In this document: in pieces, positions 2,070 to 43,116 of the stretch
Layout: each line of letters starts with the position of its first letter
Numbering within the stretch: position 1 is the stretch's first letter
DNA from: a virus
Virus record (IMG/VR): IMGVR_UViG_3300042934_000203
Coordinates: 1-43,116 of that record
Strand: one strand, 5' to 3'
DNA length: 43,116 nt
Notes under the pieces: model-generated
What the model saw: only the letters and a program-made list of their open reading frames with translations
Databases searched by the model: none
What the model was told of the DNA's origin: nothing
Translations under genes and position numbers: made by a program

Positions 2070-2171
2070 TTGGCTTGTCCTCCCTTTTTTTATTTTTCAA
2101 AATTATGAATATTAGGCTTGCGAATTGGATATGTTAGAATGGGGGAGTCTGCGATTGAGTGCGGTAAAAAA

Positions 2172-2408
2172 TTAAACAGCCTTAGAGGTTTTGTTGAACC
2201 ATTTAACATAGTCCGACTTATGCGCTCTAACTGGCTTGCCGATCTTGAAACTTTTAATACCGCCAGCATCTTCTGACGTTCTTAACAAGATATAGGCCTG
2301 TGTTACTGATATTCCTAAATGACCGCCAATGTGTTGCGCCGTAATAACGTCAGGCATTTCTTCAATGCTCATCCCCTTATAGGGGTTTTTCTCTACAGCC
2401 GCTGACAT
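2172..2408 (-). CDS. Excisionase-like HTH protein (HTH_17 type)
   Basis: 78 aa with a MerR/excisionase-type winged HTH: ITAQHIGGHLGISVTQAYIL, then the wing FKIGKPVRAHKSDYVKW. AAGGAG before the ATG supports the start. Proteins of this fold bend attachment-site DNA to help excision or act as small regulators. Being second in the early operon, well separated from int, it could be the Xis of this phage or a regulator. The family is clear, the role is inferred. Confidence 0.8.
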   Translation of the reverse strand: MSAAVEKNPYKGMSIEEMPDVITAQHIGGHLGISVTQAYILLRTSEDAGGIKSFKIGKPVRAHKSDYVKWFNKTSKAV

Positions 2409-2412
2409 TTTT

Positions 2413-2610
2413 TCACGCTCCTTCCGATTCGGTTATTCCAAGAATTCCGTTTATCTTGCCTCTCTGCGCAACGCCTTTTCTTGCCCCTCTGAAAATGTCT
2501 GATATGTACGAAACCGAAACATTGCACTCTTTAGCGATAAATGTCATTGTAATATCTTTTTCTAGCATTGCTATTCTTGCTTTGCGACCATAGTCTGATA
2601 AAATTGCCAT
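2413..2610 (-). CDS. Cro-like XRE-family HTH regulator
   Basis: 65 aa from the ATG at 2610, chosen because a perfect AAAGGAGGTGAT ribosome site sits just upstream (a longer frame to 2631 lacks one). The HTH is visible as KDITMTFIAKECNVSVSYIS. It is the first gene of the leftward early operon, divergent from the repressor at 2910 across about 300 bases, the position of Cro. It probably binds the same operators and helps set the lytic/lysogenic choice. Confidence 0.82.
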   Translation of the reverse strand: MAILSDYGRKARIAMLEKDITMTFIAKECNVSVSYISDIFRGARKGVAQRGKINGILGITESEGA

Positions 2611-2629
2611 GTAATCACCTCCTTTAGTC

Positions 2630-2647
2630 ACGGGACTTTTGTCCCGT
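2630..2647. promoter_or_regulatory. Hairpin immediately upstream of the cro-like ribosome site
   Basis: A 7-bp stem (ACGGGAC / GTCCCGT) with a TTTT loop lies directly before the ribosome binding site of the Cro-like gene in the roughly 200-base leader of the leftward transcript. It could modulate translation or be a regulator target; no long U-run follows on the leftward strand. Confidence 0.4.
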
Positions 2648-2683
2648 ATTTACTGGAATGCAGGAAAACTTTCAGCTAAAATG

Positions 2684-2712
2684 TTGACAAGCAGTATAAA
2701 ATATTCTACTAT
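2684..2712 (+). promoter_or_regulatory. Candidate rightward promoter toward the repressor
   Basis: TTGACA (2684-2689), 17-bp spacer, TACTAT (2707-2712). It points toward the repressor gene at 2910 and would give a leader of about 190 bases. The -35 is perfect and the -10 matches 4 of 6. Alternatively the repressor is read from a TATAAT at 2886-2891 that lacks a good -35. Confidence 0.4.
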
Positions 2713-2826
2713 TAGCACATTGAGCAACAATAAACACAAGTCGTTCCCCAACGATTTTTTCAAGGGTCTTGTCCACCCTCTGGTTTTTTGTTGCCATTTT
2801 CCGTCGATGTTTTAGCTGTTAATGTA

Positions 2827-2855
2827 AGTATAGAGTAAAATTTTCCTCTTGTCAA
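2827..2855 (-). promoter_or_regulatory. Early leftward promoter
   Basis: On the minus strand TTGACA (2855-2850), exactly 17 bases, then TATACT (2832-2827): a near-perfect vegetative promoter reading toward the Cro-like gene. The spacer contains one operator-like repeat (2832-2849) and the -35 is flanked by a perfect 26-bp palindrome, so repressor binding would occlude it. This is the likely start of the whole early leftward transcript. Confidence 0.85.
2832..2849. promoter_or_regulatory. Operator-like imperfect palindrome inside the early promoter
   Basis: AGAGTAAAATTTTCCTCT, an inverted repeat with one mismatch pair. It shares the half-site AGAGTAAA with the 26-bp palindrome, and the two centres lie 30 bp apart, close to three helical turns. 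It fills the -35/-10 spacer of the leftward promoter. Binding is inferred. Confidence 0.65.
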
Positions 2856-2857
2856 GC

Positions 2858-2883
2858 AATCAGAGTAAATATTTACTCTGATT
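2858..2883. promoter_or_regulatory. Perfect 26-bp palindromic operator
   Basis: Half-site AATCAGAGTAAAT followed by its exact reverse complement. It lies between the leftward promoter and the repressor start (2910), the expected place for the main repressor operator controlling both directions. It shares AGAGTAAA with the second site at 2832-2849. Confidence 0.8.
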
Positions 2884-2909
2884 CTTATAATAATATTGGA
2901 GGAGTTAAA

Positions 2910-3254
2910 ATGAGTATTGTTGAAAGGATTCAACGCCTTTGCGATGAAAACAATATTACGGTTGGTATTCTTGAAAAGAACCTTGGTCTTAGTAAGGCGG
3001 CTATATACAAGTGGCACAAAAGCTCTCCAAATTCAGACACGTTGCTTAAAGTTGCAAGATATTTCGGCGTTCCGATGGAGTCATTGCTGGCTGATAGTTT
3101 TACAGTTGAAGATTTCGGAAAAGATGATGCTGCGTTAAGGGAATTTATTAAAAGCAAAGAAAATAAACCATATATAATAATGAGTGCGAAAGCAAAAGAA
3201 AAAGGTATGTCACCCGAAACGTTAGAAAAGCTAATTGAACTTTACACAAAATAA
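2910..3254 (+). CDS. CI-like repressor, XRE family
   Basis: 114 aa with an N-terminal XRE HTH (residues about 5-60: ITVGILEKNLGLSKAAIYKW, then DTLLKVARYFGVPMESLL) and a short C-terminal part, without a LexA-type Ser/Lys protease domain. Induction is therefore probably by the antirepressor rather than self-cleavage. GGAGGAG lies before the ATG. Divergent from the Cro-like gene and followed by a terminator, it is the likely prophage maintenance repressor acting at the palindromes at 2832-2883. Confidence 0.87.
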   Translation: MSIVERIQRLCDENNITVGILEKNLGLSKAAIYKWHKSSPNSDTLLKVARYFGVPMESLLADSFTVEDFGKDDAALREFIKSKENKPYIIMSAKAKEKGMSPETLEKLIELYTK

Positions 3255-3281
3255 AAAGGGATAGCACCTCGCTATCCCTTT
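3253..3281. terminator. Bidirectional terminator between repressor and 42-aa gene
   Basis: An 11-bp stem, AAAGGGATAGC / GCTATCCCTTT, with loop ACCTC. Read leftward it is followed by TTTTTATTTT, a strong tail; read rightward the tail (TTTACATT) is weak. It separates the convergent repressor (ends 3254) and small gene (ends 3313). Confidence 0.8.
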
Positions 3282-3312
3282 ACATTATAAAACATTGTTT
3301 ATTTCAAACGCA

Positions 3313-3891: not shown

Positions 3892-5052
3892 ATGCCAAAC
3901 CCATATAAGCGCGGAAGCGTGTGGGAATACAGACTTGAACTCGGAACAGATAAAAACGGAAAACGAAAAAAATCAACGAAGGGAGGGTTTCGGACTCAAA
4001 AAGAAGCAAATGCGGCGTATATTATAGCGCAAAATGAATTATTACAAGGAACATTTATTATTGAAAAGGATATTCCATTTAGCGACTTTTCTACCGAATG
4101 GCTTGAACGGTATGCCAGGGATGTAAAAAAAAGTACAGTCAGAGTCAGAAAACATGAAGTCGCTAAACTGCTTCATTACTTTGAACAATATCGCCTAAAA
4201 GATATCACTAAAAAGCAGTATCAGGACGCTTTATACGATATGCAGAAACAAGGATTTGCCGCCAACACGATTGCAGGTGTTCACGGAACAGCGAAGATGA
4301 TATTTAAAAAAGCAATTGAGCTTGATGTTACTAAAAACGACCCCACACAACACGCTAGGCCTCCACGCAAACAAGAAACGTTAGAAGATATAGAACGCGC
4401 CGACGATGTTCCAAAATACCTTGAAAAAGAAGAATTGGTAACATTTTTACGCATCGCAAGAGACGCAGGATTGACCGCAGACTATACCATATTTCTAGTA
4501 TTGTCCTATACCGGAATCAGAGCAGGTGAATTGTGTTCCTTGAAATGGCCTGACATTGATTTTGAAAACAACACCATCAGAATTGCGAGGACATATTATA
4601 ATCCAACCAACAACCTAAAAAAATATGAATTACAACCGCCAAAAACACCTTCATCGCGTCGAACGATTGAAGTTACTGCCAATGTTATTGACGAATTAAA
4701 GCTTCATCAAGCGCGACAAGAACAGGAGAAAAAACGTCGCACTGATTGGCACAAAGAAAACTTTGTATTTTGCGTTGAGTCGTACCCCGGCTACCCTCTA
4801 TATATCAAAAAAATTGAGAATCGCATGACTAGGCTATTAAAGATAGCAGGACTTCCAGAAGAACTCACACCGCATTCATTGCGCCATACCCACACTTCCC
4901 TATTAGCAGAAGCTAAAGTAGGCTTAGAAGAGATTATGGAGCGTTTAGGACATATTGACGACGACACCACTCGCAAGGTTTATCTACATGTTACACAAAC
5001 AATGAAAAAAGAAGCTGCCCACAAGTTCGCTCAACTCATGGACAGCCTCTAA
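3892..5052 (+). CDS. int: Tyrosine-recombinase integrase
   Basis: 386 aa. Residues 1-55 form an AP2-like arm-binding head (RGSVWEYRLELG..NGKRKKSTKGGFRTQKEA), 60-160 a SAM-like core-binding domain, and about 170-380 the catalytic domain with R210 (TGIRAGEL), K251, H328-x-x-R331 (PHSLRHTH), H354 (RLGH) and Tyr364 (KVYLHV). AAGGAG precedes the ATG. It catalyses site-specific integration and excision between attP and a host site. The arm-type repeats directly downstream identify the attP side. All key residues are present, so it should be active. Confidence 0.97.
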   Translation: MPNPYKRGSVWEYRLELGTDKNGKRKKSTKGGFRTQKEANAAYIIAQNELLQGTFIIEKDIPFSDFSTEWLERYARDVKKSTVRVRKHEVAKLLHYFEQYRLKDITKKQYQDALYDMQKQGFAANTIAGVHGTAKMIFKKAIELDVTKNDPTQHARPPRKQETLEDIERADDVPKYLEKEELVTFLRIARDAGLTADYTIFLVLSYTGIRAGELCSLKWPDIDFENNTIRIARTYYNPTNNLKKYELQPPKTPSSRRTIEVTANVIDELKLHQARQEQEKKRRTDWHKENFVFCVESYPGYPLYIKKIENRMTRLLKIAGLPEELTPHSLRHTHTSLLAEAKVGLEEIMERLGHIDDDTTRKVYLHVTQTMKKEAAHKFAQLMDSL

Positions 5053-5364
5053 ATTTTTTTAACTAATTTCGTCCGCAAAATGTCCGCAAATCAGTTTTTA
5101 CAGCTATCAGACCCGTGTATTTACTGGGTCGGAAGGCCGTTTCTACATCATGCCGCCCCTATAAGTGTTTTTGTATATTAAGAAAAACAACAAAAACAAG
5201 CGGTAAAAACAACTTTCTTCCTATATATAAGTAAAAATATCTATCATAATTAAATTGGCAAAACTAACCATGTCCGCAACTCGTCCGCAAATGTCATTTT
5301 TAGCGTTTTGCGGACACGAATGTTATTCAAGCTAGTAATCGTATGGAGATAAGGAGAATCGCGA
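5053..5364. other. attP region with integrase arm-type repeats (non-coding)
   Basis: The 312 bases after int hold no convincing gene. GTCCGCAA occurs at 5071-5079 and 5082-5090 (11-bp period), again at 5272-5279 and 5283-5291 (same period), inverted at 5307-5315, and once more at 5393-5399. Pairs of phased repeats on both sides of an unrepeated centre are the layout of lambda-type arm sites around an attP core. A short inverted repeat (GACCC / GGGTC, 5110-5130) lies in the centre. Confidence 0.8.
5143..5157. other. Candidate attP core resembling the 3' end of groEL
   Basis: On the minus strand this 15-mer reads GGC GGC ATG ATG TAG, that is Gly-Gly-Met-Met-stop, the typical last codons of bacterial groEL. 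It lies between the two pairs of arm-type repeats. Many integrases use the 3' end of a conserved gene and carry that end in attP. The sequence match is direct; that the phage inserts at groEL is a hypothesis. Confidence 0.4.
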
Positions 5365-5373
5365 ATGTCTATT

Positions 5374-5580
5374 TTATCCCTGTATCTTCATTGTCCGCAT
5401 TTTTGGCTTGTTCGAGTTAAACAATACACTTCGCGCCTTGCCGTATATTTCTGGTGTTTCATCCGGAGCATATTCTTTCACTTCAATATCACCGATTTTT
5501 CCATAAATACAGAGCAATGGAACCTCTTCGCGCTGACACATTTCGGCAACCTCGTTAACTAAACGTGTGATTTTTTCCAT
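5374..5580 (-). CDS. 68-aa hypothetical protein next to attP
   Basis: Soluble, mixed-charge protein (starts MEKITRLVNEVAEMCQREE, contains GKIGDIEVKEYAPDETPEIYG). The ATG has AAAGGAGTG upstream. It is the last leftward gene before attP and so would lie at one prophage end. A rightward frame over the same bases with its own ribosome site has an unlikely composition and is rejected. Function unknown. Confidence 0.65.
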   Translation of the reverse strand: MEKITRLVNEVAEMCQREEVPLLCIYGKIGDIEVKEYAPDETPEIYGKARSVLFNSNKPKMRTMKIQG

Positions 5581-5639
5581 TCAAAACACTCCTTTTATTT
5601 TATACTACACGAAACGAAACCTAGTAGGCTAACAATAAA

Positions 5640-5678
5640 CCGTCAATTAACTGGCCTGATGACGTTTTTTTGTTAGTT
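5640..5678 (+). terminator. Weak hairpin with T-run
   Basis: An imperfect stem (CGTCA / TGACG) with a long loop, followed by TTTTTTT around 5669-5675, reading rightward. It could end rightward transcription from int or simply separate the 68-aa gene from the membrane-protein genes. The stem is short, so confidence is low. Confidence 0.3.
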
Positions 5679-5710
5679 CAGAAGTATGTAGCTTCTATAT
5701 ACTTTCTATA

Positions 5711-6043
5711 TTAAACGAACAACTTAATCAACTCATTCAGTCCTAGTACGACTCCAACAAAGTAACACATCTTAGCTGTCTTTTTGTCAACTAAAAATCC
5801 AAACAGCCAGCAAATAGAAACGATTGTAAATATCTCTAACATCGTAGACAAGAAGGATTTTGCTGCAGCTTTTATGTCCTTTTTGACTTGATGCGTCTCC
5901 TGTCGTATCTTACTTAGCGCATCGTCTACAGCATTATTAGTGTTTCGCCTGATCGTGTCACCAGCCGTATCTACAGGATTTTGCCACGCCATACAGATGG
6001 GCATGATTGCCAGTATCAGGAGAACAATAACTAGCGTTTTCAT
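5711..6043 (-). CDS. 110-aa secreted/membrane protein of the FtsK cassette
   Basis: The N-terminus (MKTLVIVLLILAIMPICMA) is a signal peptide or anchor. A polar helical part (NNAVDDALSKIRQETHQVKK) follows, then two hydrophobic segments near residues 65-85 and 90-108. The ATG overlaps the upstream stop as ATGA, so it is coupled to the 94-aa gene. It is the last gene of the cassette XRE / FtsK / winged-helix / membrane proteins. It may anchor or form part of an envelope channel. No family recognised. Confidence 0.68.
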   Translation of the reverse strand: MKTLVIVLLILAIMPICMAWQNPVDTAGDTIRRNTNNAVDDALSKIRQETHQVKKDIKAAAKSFLSTMLEIFTIVSICWLFGFLVDKKTAKMCYFVGVVLGLNELIKLFV

Positions 6044-6324
6044 AGTCCTAGCAGGTTAAAAGCGGTATTAATCAAACCATAAACTGAAGCTATCACTATT
6101 CCGACTTGCGCCGTTTTGATGATGTAGTTTATCCACTTGATTTCACCATGACCGCACACACTACAAACTGTGGTTATAATCCAGCCACCGACAGATAATC
6201 CGACTATCCAAATAACCGCCCTTCCTGCGCCACCTGGCCCGAATACTTCACCAATTACGCTTGCTATCCCAGCATAAGCAATAGCAGGAAACATCGCAAA
6301 CAAAACAATTAATGGGATCCGCAC
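6040..6324 (-). CDS. 94-aa VirB2/TrbC-like small membrane protein (topology only)
   Basis: Has a signal peptide ending AIAYA, then a mature part of about 76 aa with two hydrophobic helices (WIVGLSVGGWIITTVCSV, and TAQVGIVIASVYGLINTAF) joined by a short polar loop with CGHGEIKW. Size, signal peptide and paired helices resemble VirB2/TrbC pilins or small phage coat proteins. This is similarity of shape, not a proven homology. The start is GTG with GGGGG seven bases upstream, overlapping the previous gene by 16 nt. Confidence 0.65.
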   Translation of the reverse strand: MRIPLIVLFAMFPAIAYAGIASVIGEVFGPGGAGRAVIWIVGLSVGGWIITTVCSVCGHGEIKWINYIIKTAQVGIVIASVYGLINTAFNLLGL

Positions 6325-6728
6325 TTTAATTCCCCCTGTATTTTTTCAACCGATGGCACATTAAGATCAAATAAACAGTACTCTTTGATTGTTCCTGTGA
6401 CCGTATTTTTGACAGCATATATTTTATAGTCGTAGCTGACAATTTGTTCCCATGATTTCAAGCTCTTAATTATCCATAGACGCGCCCAGTTTTCATTTAC
6501 TCGCTTGATAATGTCCGGCCTTTTATCATCTATGTAGTAGCAGTAAGGCATGACCTGTTCGTATCGTTTAATCCGTTTCTTTTCCGTCAATTTTAATAAT
6601 CTTCTTAGACAAACCGCGTATGACGGAAATAATAGTAGGCAAATTTGATCCGTCGACATTACTCCCCATTCGCGAATCGTCGATACTGTCAGCGCGTCTC
6701 TGGCTAAACATTTTTGATGGTTGTTCAA
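6309..6728 (-). CDS. Replication-relaxation-like winged-helix protein
   Basis: 139 aa. Residues 10-60 look like the winged helix of the replication-relaxation family (TIREWGVMSTDQICLLLFPS, then CLRRLLKLTEKKRIKRYE), followed by a beta-rich part. The start is TTG at 6728 with GGAGGTG six bases before it, giving an unusual 161-nt out-of-frame overlap with the end of the FtsK-like gene. In plasmids and integrative elements such proteins are often encoded beside FtsK-like ATPases. A DNA-binding partner of the ATPase is the likeliest role. Confidence 0.72.
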   Translation of the reverse strand: MNNHQKCLARDALTVSTIREWGVMSTDQICLLLFPSYAVCLRRLLKLTEKKRIKRYEQVMPYCYYIDDKRPDIIKRVNENWARLWIIKSLKSWEQIVSYDYKIYAVKNTVTGTIKEYCLFDLNVPSVEKIQGELKCGSH

Positions 6729-7776
6729 GGTACACCTCCGCTATGTCGGGATCAAGGTAAGGAGTCTGTACTTCTATTGATTCGCCTAGTTTCCATATCG
6801 CACGACCTGGAATTTTGGGTAAACTGGCTGCTTCTGTGCTATCAAGAATGATTTTGCTGTTGATAGAGTCTGAGACTTGGAAACAAAGCCTTCCAACTAA
6901 ATTAGCTTTGCACGCACCGAAAGACTTCTTGCCAAATATCTCACAGTCTGGCCTTTGTGTCGCTAGAATAATTCTGATCCCCGGCGCACGGCCTAACCGT
7001 AACAATGTTTCTAAATCCTCCTGCGCCTGTTTATCCTTTAACTCTGCTAACTCATCAATAATCAAAACTATGTAGTCCATGCCGCCATAACGCTCATTAT
7101 ATTTCTCGATATTGACACACTTAGCTTGCAGGAGTATTTGTAGCCTGTTCCGCATTTCAACCACAATTCTAGTTAATGCCATTCGCGCTGTAAGTTGTTC
7201 TGTGACCAGTAAAACACGCTTGGACAAGTAGTCATACTCAACAACTTTGAGATCAACCATGACGATTTTAGGCGGTTGTGGCAGGTGTAGCAATGTGTTA
7301 GTGATAACATGGATAATGTTAGATTTTCCACCTCCAATGTAACCGCCAATCAGCATATTATAGACCTTGGCTAAGTCTGCATATACTGCTCCTTCATGGT
7401 TATAGCCGATGAGCATAGGTAGTATCATATCGCTCATGCATGGGATATGATCAAAGCTAAAAATGATCTTTTTAGGGATTTTCTTTTCAATTACCTTCAA
7501 TAAAGCCAGTTTGCCAATATGTTGTACTTCTGTCGTTATATCGCCTATGCTGTCTCGAAAATATTCTTCTCTGTTGGCAAAGTCTCGATATGACATTCCA
7601 GGCGGTAAAGCAAACTTAAATTCCCATCCATCCTGAGTCTTTCGCTTCTCATATAACTGCGGACGCTTTGACTCTGCCCAAATCGCTTCAACTGTACTGA
7701 TGATTGCCAATGGTATCTCCTGCCCTGTGTGGCTCATGATGAATGACCGCACGTCTTCTCTGACTCCCAAACCCAT
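6568..7776 (-). CDS. FtsK/SpoIIIE-type DNA-translocating ATPase
   Basis: About 402 aa with one FtsK/HerA motor: Walker A GGYIGGGKS near residue 145, Walker B YIVLIIDELAEL near 236-246, and the family signature RAPGIRIILATQRPD near 265-278. It lacks the N-terminal membrane domain and the C-terminal gamma domain of chromosomal FtsK, and matches in size the coupling or translocase proteins of Gram-positive ICEs and plasmids (ConQ/TcpA/TraB-like). It is neither terminase nor tail protein, so it is foreign to a standard podovirus. It probably moves DNA at the membrane with the small membrane proteins downstream. Confidence 0.88.
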   Translation of the reverse strand: MGLGVREDVRSFIMSHTGQEIPLAIISTVEAIWAESKRPQLYEKRKTQDGWEFKFALPPGMSYRDFANREEYFRDSIGDITTEVQHIGKLALLKVIEKKIPKKIIFSFDHIPCMSDMILPMLIGYNHEGAVYADLAKVYNMLIGGYIGGGKSNIIHVITNTLLHLPQPPKIVMVDLKVVEYDYLSKRVLLVTEQLTARMALTRIVVEMRNRLQILLQAKCVNIEKYNERYGGMDYIVLIIDELAELKDKQAQEDLETLLRLGRAPGIRIILATQRPDCEIFGKKSFGACKANLVGRLCFQVSDSINSKIILDSTEAASLPKIPGRAIWKLGESIEVQTPYLDPDIAEVYLEQPSKMFSQRRADSIDDSRMGSNVDGSNLPTIISVIRGLSKKIIKIDGKETD

Positions 7777-7895
7777 CACCTCTATAAGCTTGTTATGTGG
7801 TTGCTATATTCGCCTCCTTGCTGTTTTTATTTATAGATATGTAGGTTGTAGGAATAAGTTGTATGTCCATAGGAAAAAATCATAAAAAATATGAC

Positions 7896-8093
7896 CTACT
7901 CGATTATTTCGAATAGGTCATTAACAGTACAGCCCAATTTATCACTTATCTTTAATGCCATAGCCAATGATGGTTGCCCATGTTGAAGTTCCCATCGGTT
8001 GTACAGCTTATCATTCACACCCAAAAACGTTGCAAATTCAGTCTGATTCATTCTCTTGTCGTGACGCTTGTTTTTCAATTTATTTTTAAGCAT
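7896..8093 (-). CDS. XRE-family HTH regulator of the FtsK cassette
   Basis: 65 aa from the ATG at 8093 (GGGTGAT five bases upstream), nearly all one XRE HTH (MNQTEFATFLGVNDKLYNRW, then ALKISDKLGCTVNDLFEIIE). It is first in the leftward group leading into the FtsK-like gene, with about 115 bases between that hold no clear gene. It probably controls its own cassette. Confidence 0.8.
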   Translation of the reverse strand: MLKNKLKNKRHDKRMNQTEFATFLGVNDKLYNRWELQHGQPSLAMALKISDKLGCTVNDLFEIIE

Positions 8094-28972: not shown

Positions 28973-30256
28973 TCACCTCACACGTTTAAATGGGTTATAT
29001 CGTGACTTAGCACGACTCTTTACATCATAGGCTTGCTTTGTCTTGCCCATTTCTTGTTCTAAGCCATAGCGAATAGAGTCAATAATATGATTATTTTTGT
29101 CTACAGGCTCAGGCAATACATTACCATCTTTGTCCTCTCGCCATTTATAGACTGTAAACTCATTGATAGCATCTTTGAGTCGGTAATCAATGACGATTTG
29201 TAATGTCTGCAACCACTGTATTCCAAAGTTAACGCTGTCCTTGCCTTTGGTGCATGGTGTAGCTGTCACTCCATATTGCCGCAACTCTTGTATATTAAGT
29301 GGAGCAGCACAATCGCAAGTAATTACAGCACGGCCTATCAGATTCTTGATTTCTGTGGCCAGTAAATCATTGGTCATGCCATAACAATACTTAGCATCTA
29401 GTAGATAAAGAGTCATAGATTGACGGTCATAGTGCATATGCGTTATCGCTGATGGATCTGCCGCAAAGCCAAAGTCTAAACCATTTTGGAACGTAGAAAA
29501 AGACTTAGCTTTTTCGGCTAAGTCCTCAATACGCCAATTAGTGAATATTACTTTGCCCAATGTGCCCCACATGCCCAACAGGTAAACATCGCGATAATAC
29601 TTATCTTTAGTAGCTTCTAACCGCACAATATCATCAGGCGTTAAGAATTGATTATCCTTATATGTAGTCTTTAAGATTGATATATTTTCATCTTTGTAGA
29701 ACGTAACATTATCTGTCCATCTGCCTCTAAAGTGGTTTGTATATATCCAATGTGTCATATAGATAGGGTTGAATGATAGGATAATGCGCTTCTTAACTTT
29801 GCTTTGCCCTCTAAGGCGTTTGTCTAATTGTTGTATATCCTCGTATTCTGATTCCGTTGCTTCTTCAAACCAAATATCAGTTATAACGCCTTGTGAAGGA
29901 GTTATTGACTTAACCTTCTCAGGATCATCCAGGCCACAGAAAACAATCTGATAACCATTAGAACAAGTGATAATTAAGTCAGTCATGTTAACCGTGAACA
30001 GTTTACCAACCTTGAAGAATGATATAGCCTTCTGTATTTCATTGAACACTGACCGCTTTAATGTATTGGCGACCTTACGAATAACTAAGTAATTATGACC
30101 ACCTTTGAGCATATCCAGCACGCATCTTTGAGCTAAGAAATATGACTTACCAGAGGATGAACCGCCATAATATATCTCTAGCGGTGCAATCCAGCCAAGA
30201 TAAGGCTTGTAGACAGGGTTAAATACTTTAGGATCTATTGTTAGGTTGACTTTCAT
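28973..30256 (-). CDS. terL: Terminase large subunit (PBSX-type)
   Basis: 427 aa from the ATG at 30256 (GGAG eight bases upstream); the longer frame to 30289 starts inside a terminator hairpin and is unlikely. The ATPase carries Walker A GGSSSGKS (about residue 31) and Walker B ITDIWFEEAT (about 145). The nuclease carries GLDFGFAADPSA (about 277) and NHIIDSIRYGLE near the end. It packages DNA with the small subunit at 30.8-31.2 kb. Confidence 0.95.
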   Translation of the reverse strand: MKVNLTIDPKVFNPVYKPYLGWIAPLEIYYGGSSSGKSYFLAQRCVLDMLKGGHNYLVIRKVANTLKRSVFNEIQKAISFFKVGKLFTVNMTDLIITCSNGYQIVFCGLDDPEKVKSITPSQGVITDIWFEEATESEYEDIQQLDKRLRGQSKVKKRIILSFNPIYMTHWIYTNHFRGRWTDNVTFYKDENISILKTTYKDNQFLTPDDIVRLEATKDKYYRDVYLLGMWGTLGKVIFTNWRIEDLAEKAKSFSTFQNGLDFGFAADPSAITHMHYDRQSMTLYLLDAKYCYGMTNDLLATEIKNLIGRAVITCDCAAPLNIQELRQYGVTATPCTKGKDSVNFGIQWLQTLQIVIDYRLKDAINEFTVYKWREDKDGNVLPEPVDKNNHIIDSIRYGLEQEMGKTKQAYDVKSRAKSRYNPFKRVR

Positions 30257-30272
30257 CTGATCAACTCCAAAT

Positions 30273-30302
30273 AAAAAGCCAACAGGCATTTACCTGCTGG
30301 CT
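30273..30302 (-). terminator. Terminator just upstream of terL
   Basis: Read leftward, AGCCAGCAGG, loop TAAATG, CCTGTTGGCT, then TTTTATTT: stems of 5 and 4 bp around one mismatch. It ends the short transcript carrying the 53-aa gene, 17 bases before the terL start, so terL needs readthrough or antitermination. Confidence 0.72.
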
Positions 30303-41739: not shown

Positions 41740-42321
41740 TTATTGATTGGCTTCAAAGAACGCCCTGGCGAAGCCTTGTGGAGTCATAGACCGCAACCGC
41801 CATCTATCGGGACCAGGCGGCAGTCTGTGCATCTTACTTCCTTCCGTTGGCTTGACAGGTGTTTGTTTTGGAACATTAAACTTTCCCCAAAGGCAGGTTC
41901 TCTTTGTGTACGGATCGCCATAATCGCAAGGATTAAAATACATTACTGGATTGCCTATATATTTTTTAAGTCTGCCTATCGGATTCTCTAAAGCCCAAAA
42001 TACTGGCTGAGTGACCGCTATTATTCGCAGACAAGCATCTACAACAGACAAACCTTCTTGCAGCGCTTGGCTGCCCTTTCCCGGCCACCACCTGGCTCCG
42101 CTAGAAGCAAAGTGAGTGCATGGCGGCGCGGCTAAAATGCCATATATTTTTTCATTCATCAATTCAAATGCGCTTATTTCAAACAGCCTTACATCTGTTC
42201 CATCATGTAATGGGTCAATCAGACGCACATCATATCCAGCATCTTTGTATGGCTTTGACCAAGAGCCTGTACCGCCGCAAAGGTCTAAAATAATCCTGCT
42301 AATTTCTATCACCTCATGCAT
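41740..42321 (-). CDS. Phage DNA cytosine-methyltransferase-like protein
   Basis: About 193 aa. IILDLCGGTGSWSKPYKDAG is the SAM-binding motif I, AAPPCTHFASSGARW the PC catalytic loop (PPCTHF), WALENPIGRLKKYIG motif VI-like ENP, and SMTPQGFARAFFEA motif X-like. It is shorter than restriction-type C5 methylases, as are phage Dcm-like proteins that protect phage DNA. The start is uncertain (ATG at 42321 without a good ribosome site; TTG at 42351). Confidence 0.82.
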   Translation of the reverse strand: MHEVIEISRIILDLCGGTGSWSKPYKDAGYDVRLIDPLHDGTDVRLFEISAFELMNEKIYGILAAPPCTHFASSGARWWPGKGSQALQEGLSVVDACLRIIAVTQPVFWALENPIGRLKKYIGNPVMYFNPCDYGDPYTKRTCLWGKFNVPKQTPVKPTEGSKMHRLPPGPDRWRLRSMTPQGFARAFFEANQ

Positions 42322-42394
42322 AATCCGAATAATCTTTGTGTATACTAGCAATAAGTCGGAGTCTGTGGTAAAATCAGGTTAAGCAATTTTTTGT

Positions 42395-42914: not shown

Positions 42915-43041
42915 GGCCTGTGACCTCCTTTGGTTGCCAGTTGTCAGGTCTATTTTTACCTAGCTTGTTCCAACAGCTACAGCAAGAATGATGGCTCAAA
43001 GACTCCTTTTCATATTTACATGACCAACAATTATCAATCAC
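42886..43041 (-). CDS. 51-aa zinc-ribbon protein spanning the artificial junction
   Basis: GTG start after GGAGGGG, overlapping the stop of the 34-aa gene as GTGA. It contains CWSCKYEKES and SCCSCWNKLG, two Cys pairs 12-15 residues apart, then a polar tail. In the circular genome it is one gene; in this linear copy it is whole only at the right end, and its start is duplicated at base 52. It links the two halves of the early operon. Confidence 0.65.
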   Translation of the reverse strand: MIDNCWSCKYEKESLSHHSCCSCWNKLGKNRPDNWQPKEVTGLDKIRDDRD

Positions 43042-43116
43042 TCTCTACCCCTCCATTTTCTGCACCGTTTGCATTGCACAAATTCATAAGGTGGAAAGTT
43101 GTGACCAATCAGCAAG
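42990..43116. repeat. Right copy of the 127-bp terminal direct repeat
   Basis: Identical to bases 1-127. One copy should be removed to obtain the 42,989-bp circular map. Confidence 0.93.

Follow-up and report, generated by a model that had tools for sequence, protein, structure and literature searches.

What is an FtsK-type DNA translocase gene doing beside the integrase of a probable podophage, in the company of a winged-helix gene and two genes for small membrane proteins? We addressed this question in the viral record IMGVR_UViG_3300042934_000203, which was analysed as a whole (43,116 nt, hereafter the window) and carries the cassette region at positions 5374-8093. In our reading, to which we give a probability of roughly 0.55, Firmicute phages and plasmids share a recurring cassette of three parts, of which the segment is one form and in which an FtsK/SpoIIIE-like DNA pump is split into genes. 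FtsK and SpoIIIE share with the cassette the motor domain and the plan of membrane part, motor and winged helix; unlike in those proteins, the three parts in the window are separate, virus-borne genes. All named cassette genes are genuine minus-strand open reading frames (ORFs) between the integrase and the early genes (lengths in amino acids, aa; E, expect value):

7896..8093, minus strand: XRE/Cro-type regulator, 65 aa (HTH_3, E=3.9e-8)
6568..7779, minus strand: TcpA/FtsK-type DNA translocase ATPase, 403 aa, GTG start (PF01580, E=9.2e-12; phrog_1358, E=1.4e-61)
6568..6728, minus strand: overlap of the ATPase and winged-helix genes, 161 nt (from the gene coordinates)
6309..6728, minus strand: short winged-helix protein of the Replic_Relax family, 139 aa (family alignment)
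6040..6324, minus strand: membrane hairpin 1, 94 aa, with signal peptide (AYA/G), FGPGGAG motif, two helices and GHGEIK loop
5711..6043, minus strand: membrane hairpin 2, 110 aa, with signal peptide, amphipathic spacer and two helices (hydropathy and gene order)

The cassette recurs in viruses and cells

The order ATPase, winged-helix protein, two-helix membrane protein is kept by close relatives in seven IMG/VR contigs, and the same order was found in five cellular loci (L176-L180) located with the short winged-helix alignment. The viral relatives were recovered only once the ATPase alignment was used as the query; scans of viral contigs from the single ATPase, 94-aa protein or portal sequence found no relative. 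An earlier note on this DNA had proposed surveying the neighbourhoods of homologues, and these 7 viral and 5 cellular loci exclude that the cassette is unique to this genome. Its view that the ATPase/winged-helix pair is shared with other mobile elements also held, as the pair recurs in prophages and plasmids. The Replic_Relax gene directly follows the ATPase gene in 84/90 homologous loci, mostly overlapping it, and motor, winged helix and membrane partner were all present in 12/12 sampled cellular loci from two orders. In the L015/L016 pair, the ratio of non-synonymous to synonymous substitution (dN/dS) was ~0.04 for the ATPase and the winged-helix protein, 0.09 for the hairpin and 0.19 for the second hairpin, showing strong purifying selection. 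Recurring in 7 viral and 5 cellular loci and under purifying selection, the gene order is beyond chance. What the sequences establish is the family to which the motor belongs, that the three parts are linked and recur together, and that selection acts on them.

The ATPase/winged-helix overlap, 161 nt in the window, measures 140-173 nt in L011-L014, and it is followed in the window by overlaps of 16 nt between the winged-helix and hairpin 1 genes and 4 nt between the two hairpin genes. This chain of overlaps suggests that the cassette genes form a single translationally coupled operon. The XRE regulator has a 70%-identical homologue at the same position in L012, with further homologues in L013 and L014, and presumably controls expression of the cassette.

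The motor

Judged by its sequence, the ATPase is a member of the TcpA/FtsK class of DNA translocases. It passes the curated FtsK_SpoIIIE cut-off (45.3 bits vs 24), and its Walker A (GGYIGGGKS), Walker B (IIDE) and ATQRP motifs are conserved across the family alignments; with the HTH_3 match, this bears out the XRE regulator and the FtsK-type ATPase with those motifs described previously. The sequence contains neither a predicted membrane segment nor a gamma domain of its own. A profile of the ATPase and its close relatives matched TcpA structures (6o1z, E=3.6e-44) ahead of FtsK (2ius, E=1.8e-39). TcpA of the Clostridium perfringens plasmid pCW3, which provides these closest solved motor structures, is an FtsK-like coupling protein that works with the winged-helix protein TcpK; its hexamer has been described as closer to FtsK than to the coupling protein TrwB, and movement of dsDNA has been suggested (PMC12857230).

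We also considered a packaging enzyme and rejected it, since the terminase family match is just 3.4e-7 vs 1.4e-61 for the FtsK PHROG and a terminase is encoded elsewhere in the phage; the ATPase is an FtsK-type motor. A packaging ATPase or a remnant of a filamentous-phage extrusion apparatus, to which that weak match might point, is accordingly the most improbable of the alternatives: the FtsK families match far better, a large terminase is encoded at 28973-30289, and a coat or assembly gene was not found.

The winged-helix partner

On its own, the window winged-helix protein matched Replic_Relax (PF13814) at E=0.008 and 16.7 bits, below the 25.3-bit cut-off. Each of the 11 proteins in its family alignment, however, matches the family (best 1.7e-12), in agreement with the previous description of a Replic_Relax-like winged-helix protein. 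A full-length relative, modelled at a predicted local distance difference test (pLDDT) score of 96, has an N-terminal winged helix and, after it, a PD-(D/E)XK-like core, and its best, though modest, structure matches were PD-(D/E)XK-fold nucleases and MecI/MarR-type winged helices. This fold agrees with the placement of PF13814 among the MOBC relaxases (PMC5357655, PMC12857230). The window protein shares with these relaxases (pAD1 TraX, CloDF13 MobC; PF13814) the N-terminal winged-helix part; the catalytic, PD-(D/E)XK-like C-terminal half is absent from its 139 aa, and the short relatives in L011-L016 likewise end before the catalytic region. Having lost the nuclease-like half, it is therefore no relaxase: it can probably bind DNA but should not nick it. 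Even the full-length relatives carry Q or D where lysine is usual.

These features bear on the possibility of a mobilisation or conjugation-like module, in which a TcpA-type coupling protein and a DNA-binding MOBC remnant would move the element from cell to cell, either unaided, as Streptomyces TraB does, or together with a type IV secretion system (T4SS) of the host. The nearest solved relative of the ATPase is indeed the coupling protein TcpA of pCW3, with which the winged-helix protein TcpK acts at the transfer origin, oriT (PMC6137059), and Replic_Relax is the MOBC relaxase family of streptococcal elements (PMC5357655); the downstream partners in Bacillus phages score weakly as TrbC/T4SS pilins, and an M23 wall peptidase (E=1.5e-31) is added in one relative. 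Nevertheless, we regard mobilisation as unlikely, given a winged-helix protein without its nuclease-like half and full-length relatives without the usual lysine. TcpA sits in an 11-gene conjugation locus (PMC6137059), and none like it was seen at the window cassette: type IV secretion genes (VirB4, channel proteins, relaxase) were recognised neither in the window, where part of the ORFs were profile-searched, nor, by eye, within ~10 kb of the five cellular copies. Moreover, 381/549 plasmids matching the ATPase are typed non-mobilizable, and apparently lytic phages also carry the cassette. Of the DNA-transfer device of the earlier note, the translocase is supported, as one of TcpA/FtsK class; the winged-helix protein is no relaxase.

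The membrane hairpins

The 94-aa protein was modelled with helices at residues 3-28, 33-56 and 63-92, at moderate confidence (pLDDT 71). Directly downstream of the winged-helix gene, L011-L016 each encode a protein of 97-107 aa in which a signal peptide precedes two helices; in L017 this place is taken by two hairpin-type ORFs, and in the cellular loci L176-L180 by one hairpin or two. A profile built from six cassette hairpins, with the window protein left out, was searched against 8,321 ORFs and retrieved window hairpin 1 at E=8.7e-16. Every match with E<0.1 was a membrane gene beside a cassette ATPase, among them 65-76 aa proteins upstream of the ATPase in Paenibacillus-type elements. The sequence of hairpin 2 is specific to the window phage and gave no family match better than chance; a second hairpin stands at the same position in L015, L016, L176 and L177.

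Several of these partners lead to SpoIIIAC, part of a sporulation channel, with which (as with SpoIIIAD; PF06686) the two-helix hairpin is held in common. The partners in L009 and L022 match PF06686 above its curated cut-off (3.9e-13 and 8.3e-6), and the Paenibacillus-type partners aligned with SpoIIIAC in hhalign at E=1.6e-6, with a score of 34.7 vs <=16.4 in 60 local shuffles. In a search of the 8,321 ORFs with the SpoIIIAC profile, cassette hairpins ranked first. The window 94-aa protein itself has no PF06686 match; its supported link to SpoIIIAC is a transitive one through intermediates. On a Thermoanaerobacterium plasmid, the L009 gene (L009:3221-3412) stands two genes ahead of that for FtsK, and a gene annotated as Spo0E-family lies downstream.

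The earlier note had likened the 94-aa protein to VirB2/TrbC. Its signal peptide and two-helix plan fit that shape, but homology is not supported: 1/8 family members matched (E=0.015), and comparison of an AlphaFold model with the PDB gave no pilin among the fold matches (best E 6.5). Searches with the protein yielded nothing in plasmids and chance-level matches only in phages. A third class of partner, found in Andromeda-type and Sporosarcina-order elements, does score weakly as TrbC/T4SS pilin. An IPFRxFMxG motif is common to the upstream partners of SpaA1/Geobacillus type and the downstream partners of Andromeda type; the window proteins do not have it.

Related cassettes and their hosts

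The ATPase/Replic_Relax pair is known in Bacillus phages and common on Priestia plasmids. In the Andromedavirus-type Bacillus phages (Eoghan, Novomoskovsk, Bolokhovo, 276BB001), the same motor family and partner are found with a two-helix membrane protein directly downstream; their FtsK, Replic_Relax and 'TrbC/VirB2' genes had already been annotated, and were read as a remnant of plasmid replication and segregation (PMC9658697). They differ from the window in that the partner keeps its nuclease-like half and the membrane protein has a PFREFMAG-type N-terminal motif, and their ATPase is ~26-28% identical to that of the window. The Bacillus megaterium phages Pony, Page, Pookie, Pascal, Palmer and Pavlov are, like the window phage, podoviruses with an FtsK and replication-relaxation pair, but with a full-length winged-helix partner and a different host. 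The statement that no podovirus role explains the cassette was too strong, because Pony, Page, Pookie and other podophages already carry the pair.

Joint annotation of the ATPase, Replic_Relax and even 'TrbC' thus precedes this analysis, and the kind of cassette is known. What is new is the variant in the window, whose partner is without the nuclease-like half and whose hairpins carry signal peptides; our literature search found no paper on the three-part unit as a system, on the hairpin family or on the SpoIIIAC link.

Its presence in apparently lytic Andromedavirus phages and in the podophages Pony and Page raises the question of a helper in the lytic cycle, a motor that would pull in the injected genome or would separate or position replicating phage DNA. 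The authors of the Pony genome suggested a role in DNA injection (PMC3853050), and plasmid relatives lie near ParM or ParA. Set against this, many copies come with a dedicated XRE regulator and several lie beside integrases, like lysogenic cargo; phage 268TH007 has the cassette, whereas a 96%-identical B. subtilis sister phage is reported to be without it (PMC9476937); and the cassette also occurs on non-phage plasmids. We judge a lytic role to be about as unlikely as mobilisation.

The winged-helix partner was found in 19/200 Sporosarcina-order and about 12/151 Paenibacillus-order genomes and in 0/150 Staphylococcales, while among 199 Lactobacillales genomes there was no full-length form and one weak partial match. 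Within the Sporosarcina order, SpoIVA is present in 19/19 carriers vs 144/200 genomes overall (P=0.0014, uncorrected for shared ancestry and genome size), and SpoIIIAC/AD is present in 5/5 cassette-bearing genomes of the Clostridia phylum. Spo0E- or SinI-like neighbours were sought near the cassettes; few were seen, and they are not used here as support for sporulation. One such case is a sinI-like anti-repressor gene adjoining the cassette on the Priestia plasmids L173 and L175, one of these records being 5.3 kb long.

A proposed split DNA pump and its possible purpose

In the mechanism that we propose, the ATPase would form a hexameric motor for double-strand DNA, anchored or lined at the membrane by the two-helix protein or proteins. 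Recognition would fall to the winged-helix protein, which would bind a site in the DNA of the element itself and would load the motor or set its orientation. Expression would be under the control of the XRE protein, probably in the lysogen. That the ATPase forms a hexamer, that the parts associate physically and that they pump DNA are points we infer.

What such a pump would be for is a more tentative matter. The purpose we place first, as a possibility only, is the delivery of element DNA across a membrane or septum to a daughter compartment, chiefly the forespore of a sporulating host; mobilisation and a role in the lytic cycle come next, and exclusion or defence lower. Still more doubtful is its full form, in which elements of spore-formers would pump their own DNA into the forespore, and so survive in the spore, by means of a dedicated machine: a motor resembling SpoIIIE, membrane subunits of two helices (SpoIIIAC-like or other) and a winged-helix loader that is site-specific. 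Virospores, phage genomes entrapped in spores, are an established phenomenon (PMC9429907). Control of sporulation by a phage FtsK has been suggested (PMC4197329), seemingly with reference to work on B. anthracis lysogens; a related paper does not mention FtsK (PMC2716549).

Several points weigh against the split pump and its sporulation purpose. The tie of the cassette genes to DNA transport and sporulation is drawn from sequence. Compared directly, the window hairpin group and SpoIIIAC align weakly (hhalign E=0.0055), the link being transitive. An integrated prophage would reach the spore with the chromosome anyway. The host bias may be a product of phylogeny or genome size, and among the Clostridia the association is uninformative, with SpoIVA in 4/5 carriers (G761 is negative) vs 206/291. 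Finally, a few cassette phages are labelled as infecting Staphylococcus or Stenotrophomonas. The records concerned, MW302330 (Stenotrophomonas phage TS-12) and OR670591 (Staphylococcus phage MVC_VPHSA1), contain cassettes of Bacillus type; the host labels may be mistaken, or these phages may have unusual ranges.

FtsK-like genes of Firmicute phages have long been annotated, with brief suggestions of a role in injection, replication or sporulation, and no experimental test of these roles was found in the literature searched. The three-part unit, its SpoIIIAC-family partners and its concentration in spore-formers make one testable system of these scattered annotations. If element DNA is moved into the spore, the cassette would be a means by which virospores form and plasmids are inherited through sporulation; if DNA is moved between cells, it would be a minimal device for double-strand DNA transfer.

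Genome setting of the window phage

The ends of the viral record match, positions 1-127 being repeated at 42990-43116 (about 127 bases), and the genome is therefore complete and circularly permuted or circular. The cassette is flanked by the following features:

3892..5052, plus strand: tyrosine integrase adjoining the cassette (Phage_integrase, E=3.9e-28)
5050..5400, no strand assigned: probable phage attachment site (attP) region, in which TGTCCGCAA integrase arm-type sites recur as direct and inverted repeats
5374..5580, minus strand: 68-aa ORF at the cassette end, with a 40%-identical ORF beside the L013 cassette

The integrase is 47% identical to that of Geobacillus phage GBSV1, whose cassette likewise adjoins the integrase. 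Placement of the cassette beside the integrase is confirmed; the attP itself, next to which it had been placed, is located indirectly, from the tyrosine integrase and the TGTCCGCAA arm-type repeats rather than from an att core, and is probable.

A DNA motor and membrane proteins beside an integrase could also be cargo that acts at the membrane on incoming DNA, for superinfection exclusion or for defence against phages. With the PADLOC library, the ATPase domain matched SspH and mad8; these matches span the generic FtsK/HerA ATPase domain only, the other components have no defence match, and the search, returning only generic ATPase-domain and helix-turn-helix (HTH) matches, did not find the full component set of a known defence system. 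Exclusion or defence would also leave the plasmid occurrence and the SpoIIIAC link unexplained, and we consider it improbable.

The portal and tail genes are of podovirus type, consistent with a podophage, and the structural genes are similar to those found in phages of Gram-negative bacteria. Together with the Geobacillus-like integrase, such genes would suit a double-membraned Firmicute host; a scan of genome contigs was swamped by housekeeping FtsK/SpoIIIE, and the host was not found. Elsewhere in the window, a 203-aa ORF at 41740-42351 looks DNA-methyltransferase-like by eye.

Other genes accompany the related cassettes. In one cellular cassette, an extra membrane protein carries an M23 cell-wall peptidase domain (L180:146-871, also L188:7914-8639; E=1.5e-31). 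In L015 and L016, the cassette is immediately preceded (about 2109-3291) by a gene of ParM/actin-like type and a small one of CopG/RHH-like type, which suggests a plasmid-like prophage with a partition system. A gene for a Ku-like DNA-end-binding protein lies near the cassette in L012 (L012:2004-2816).

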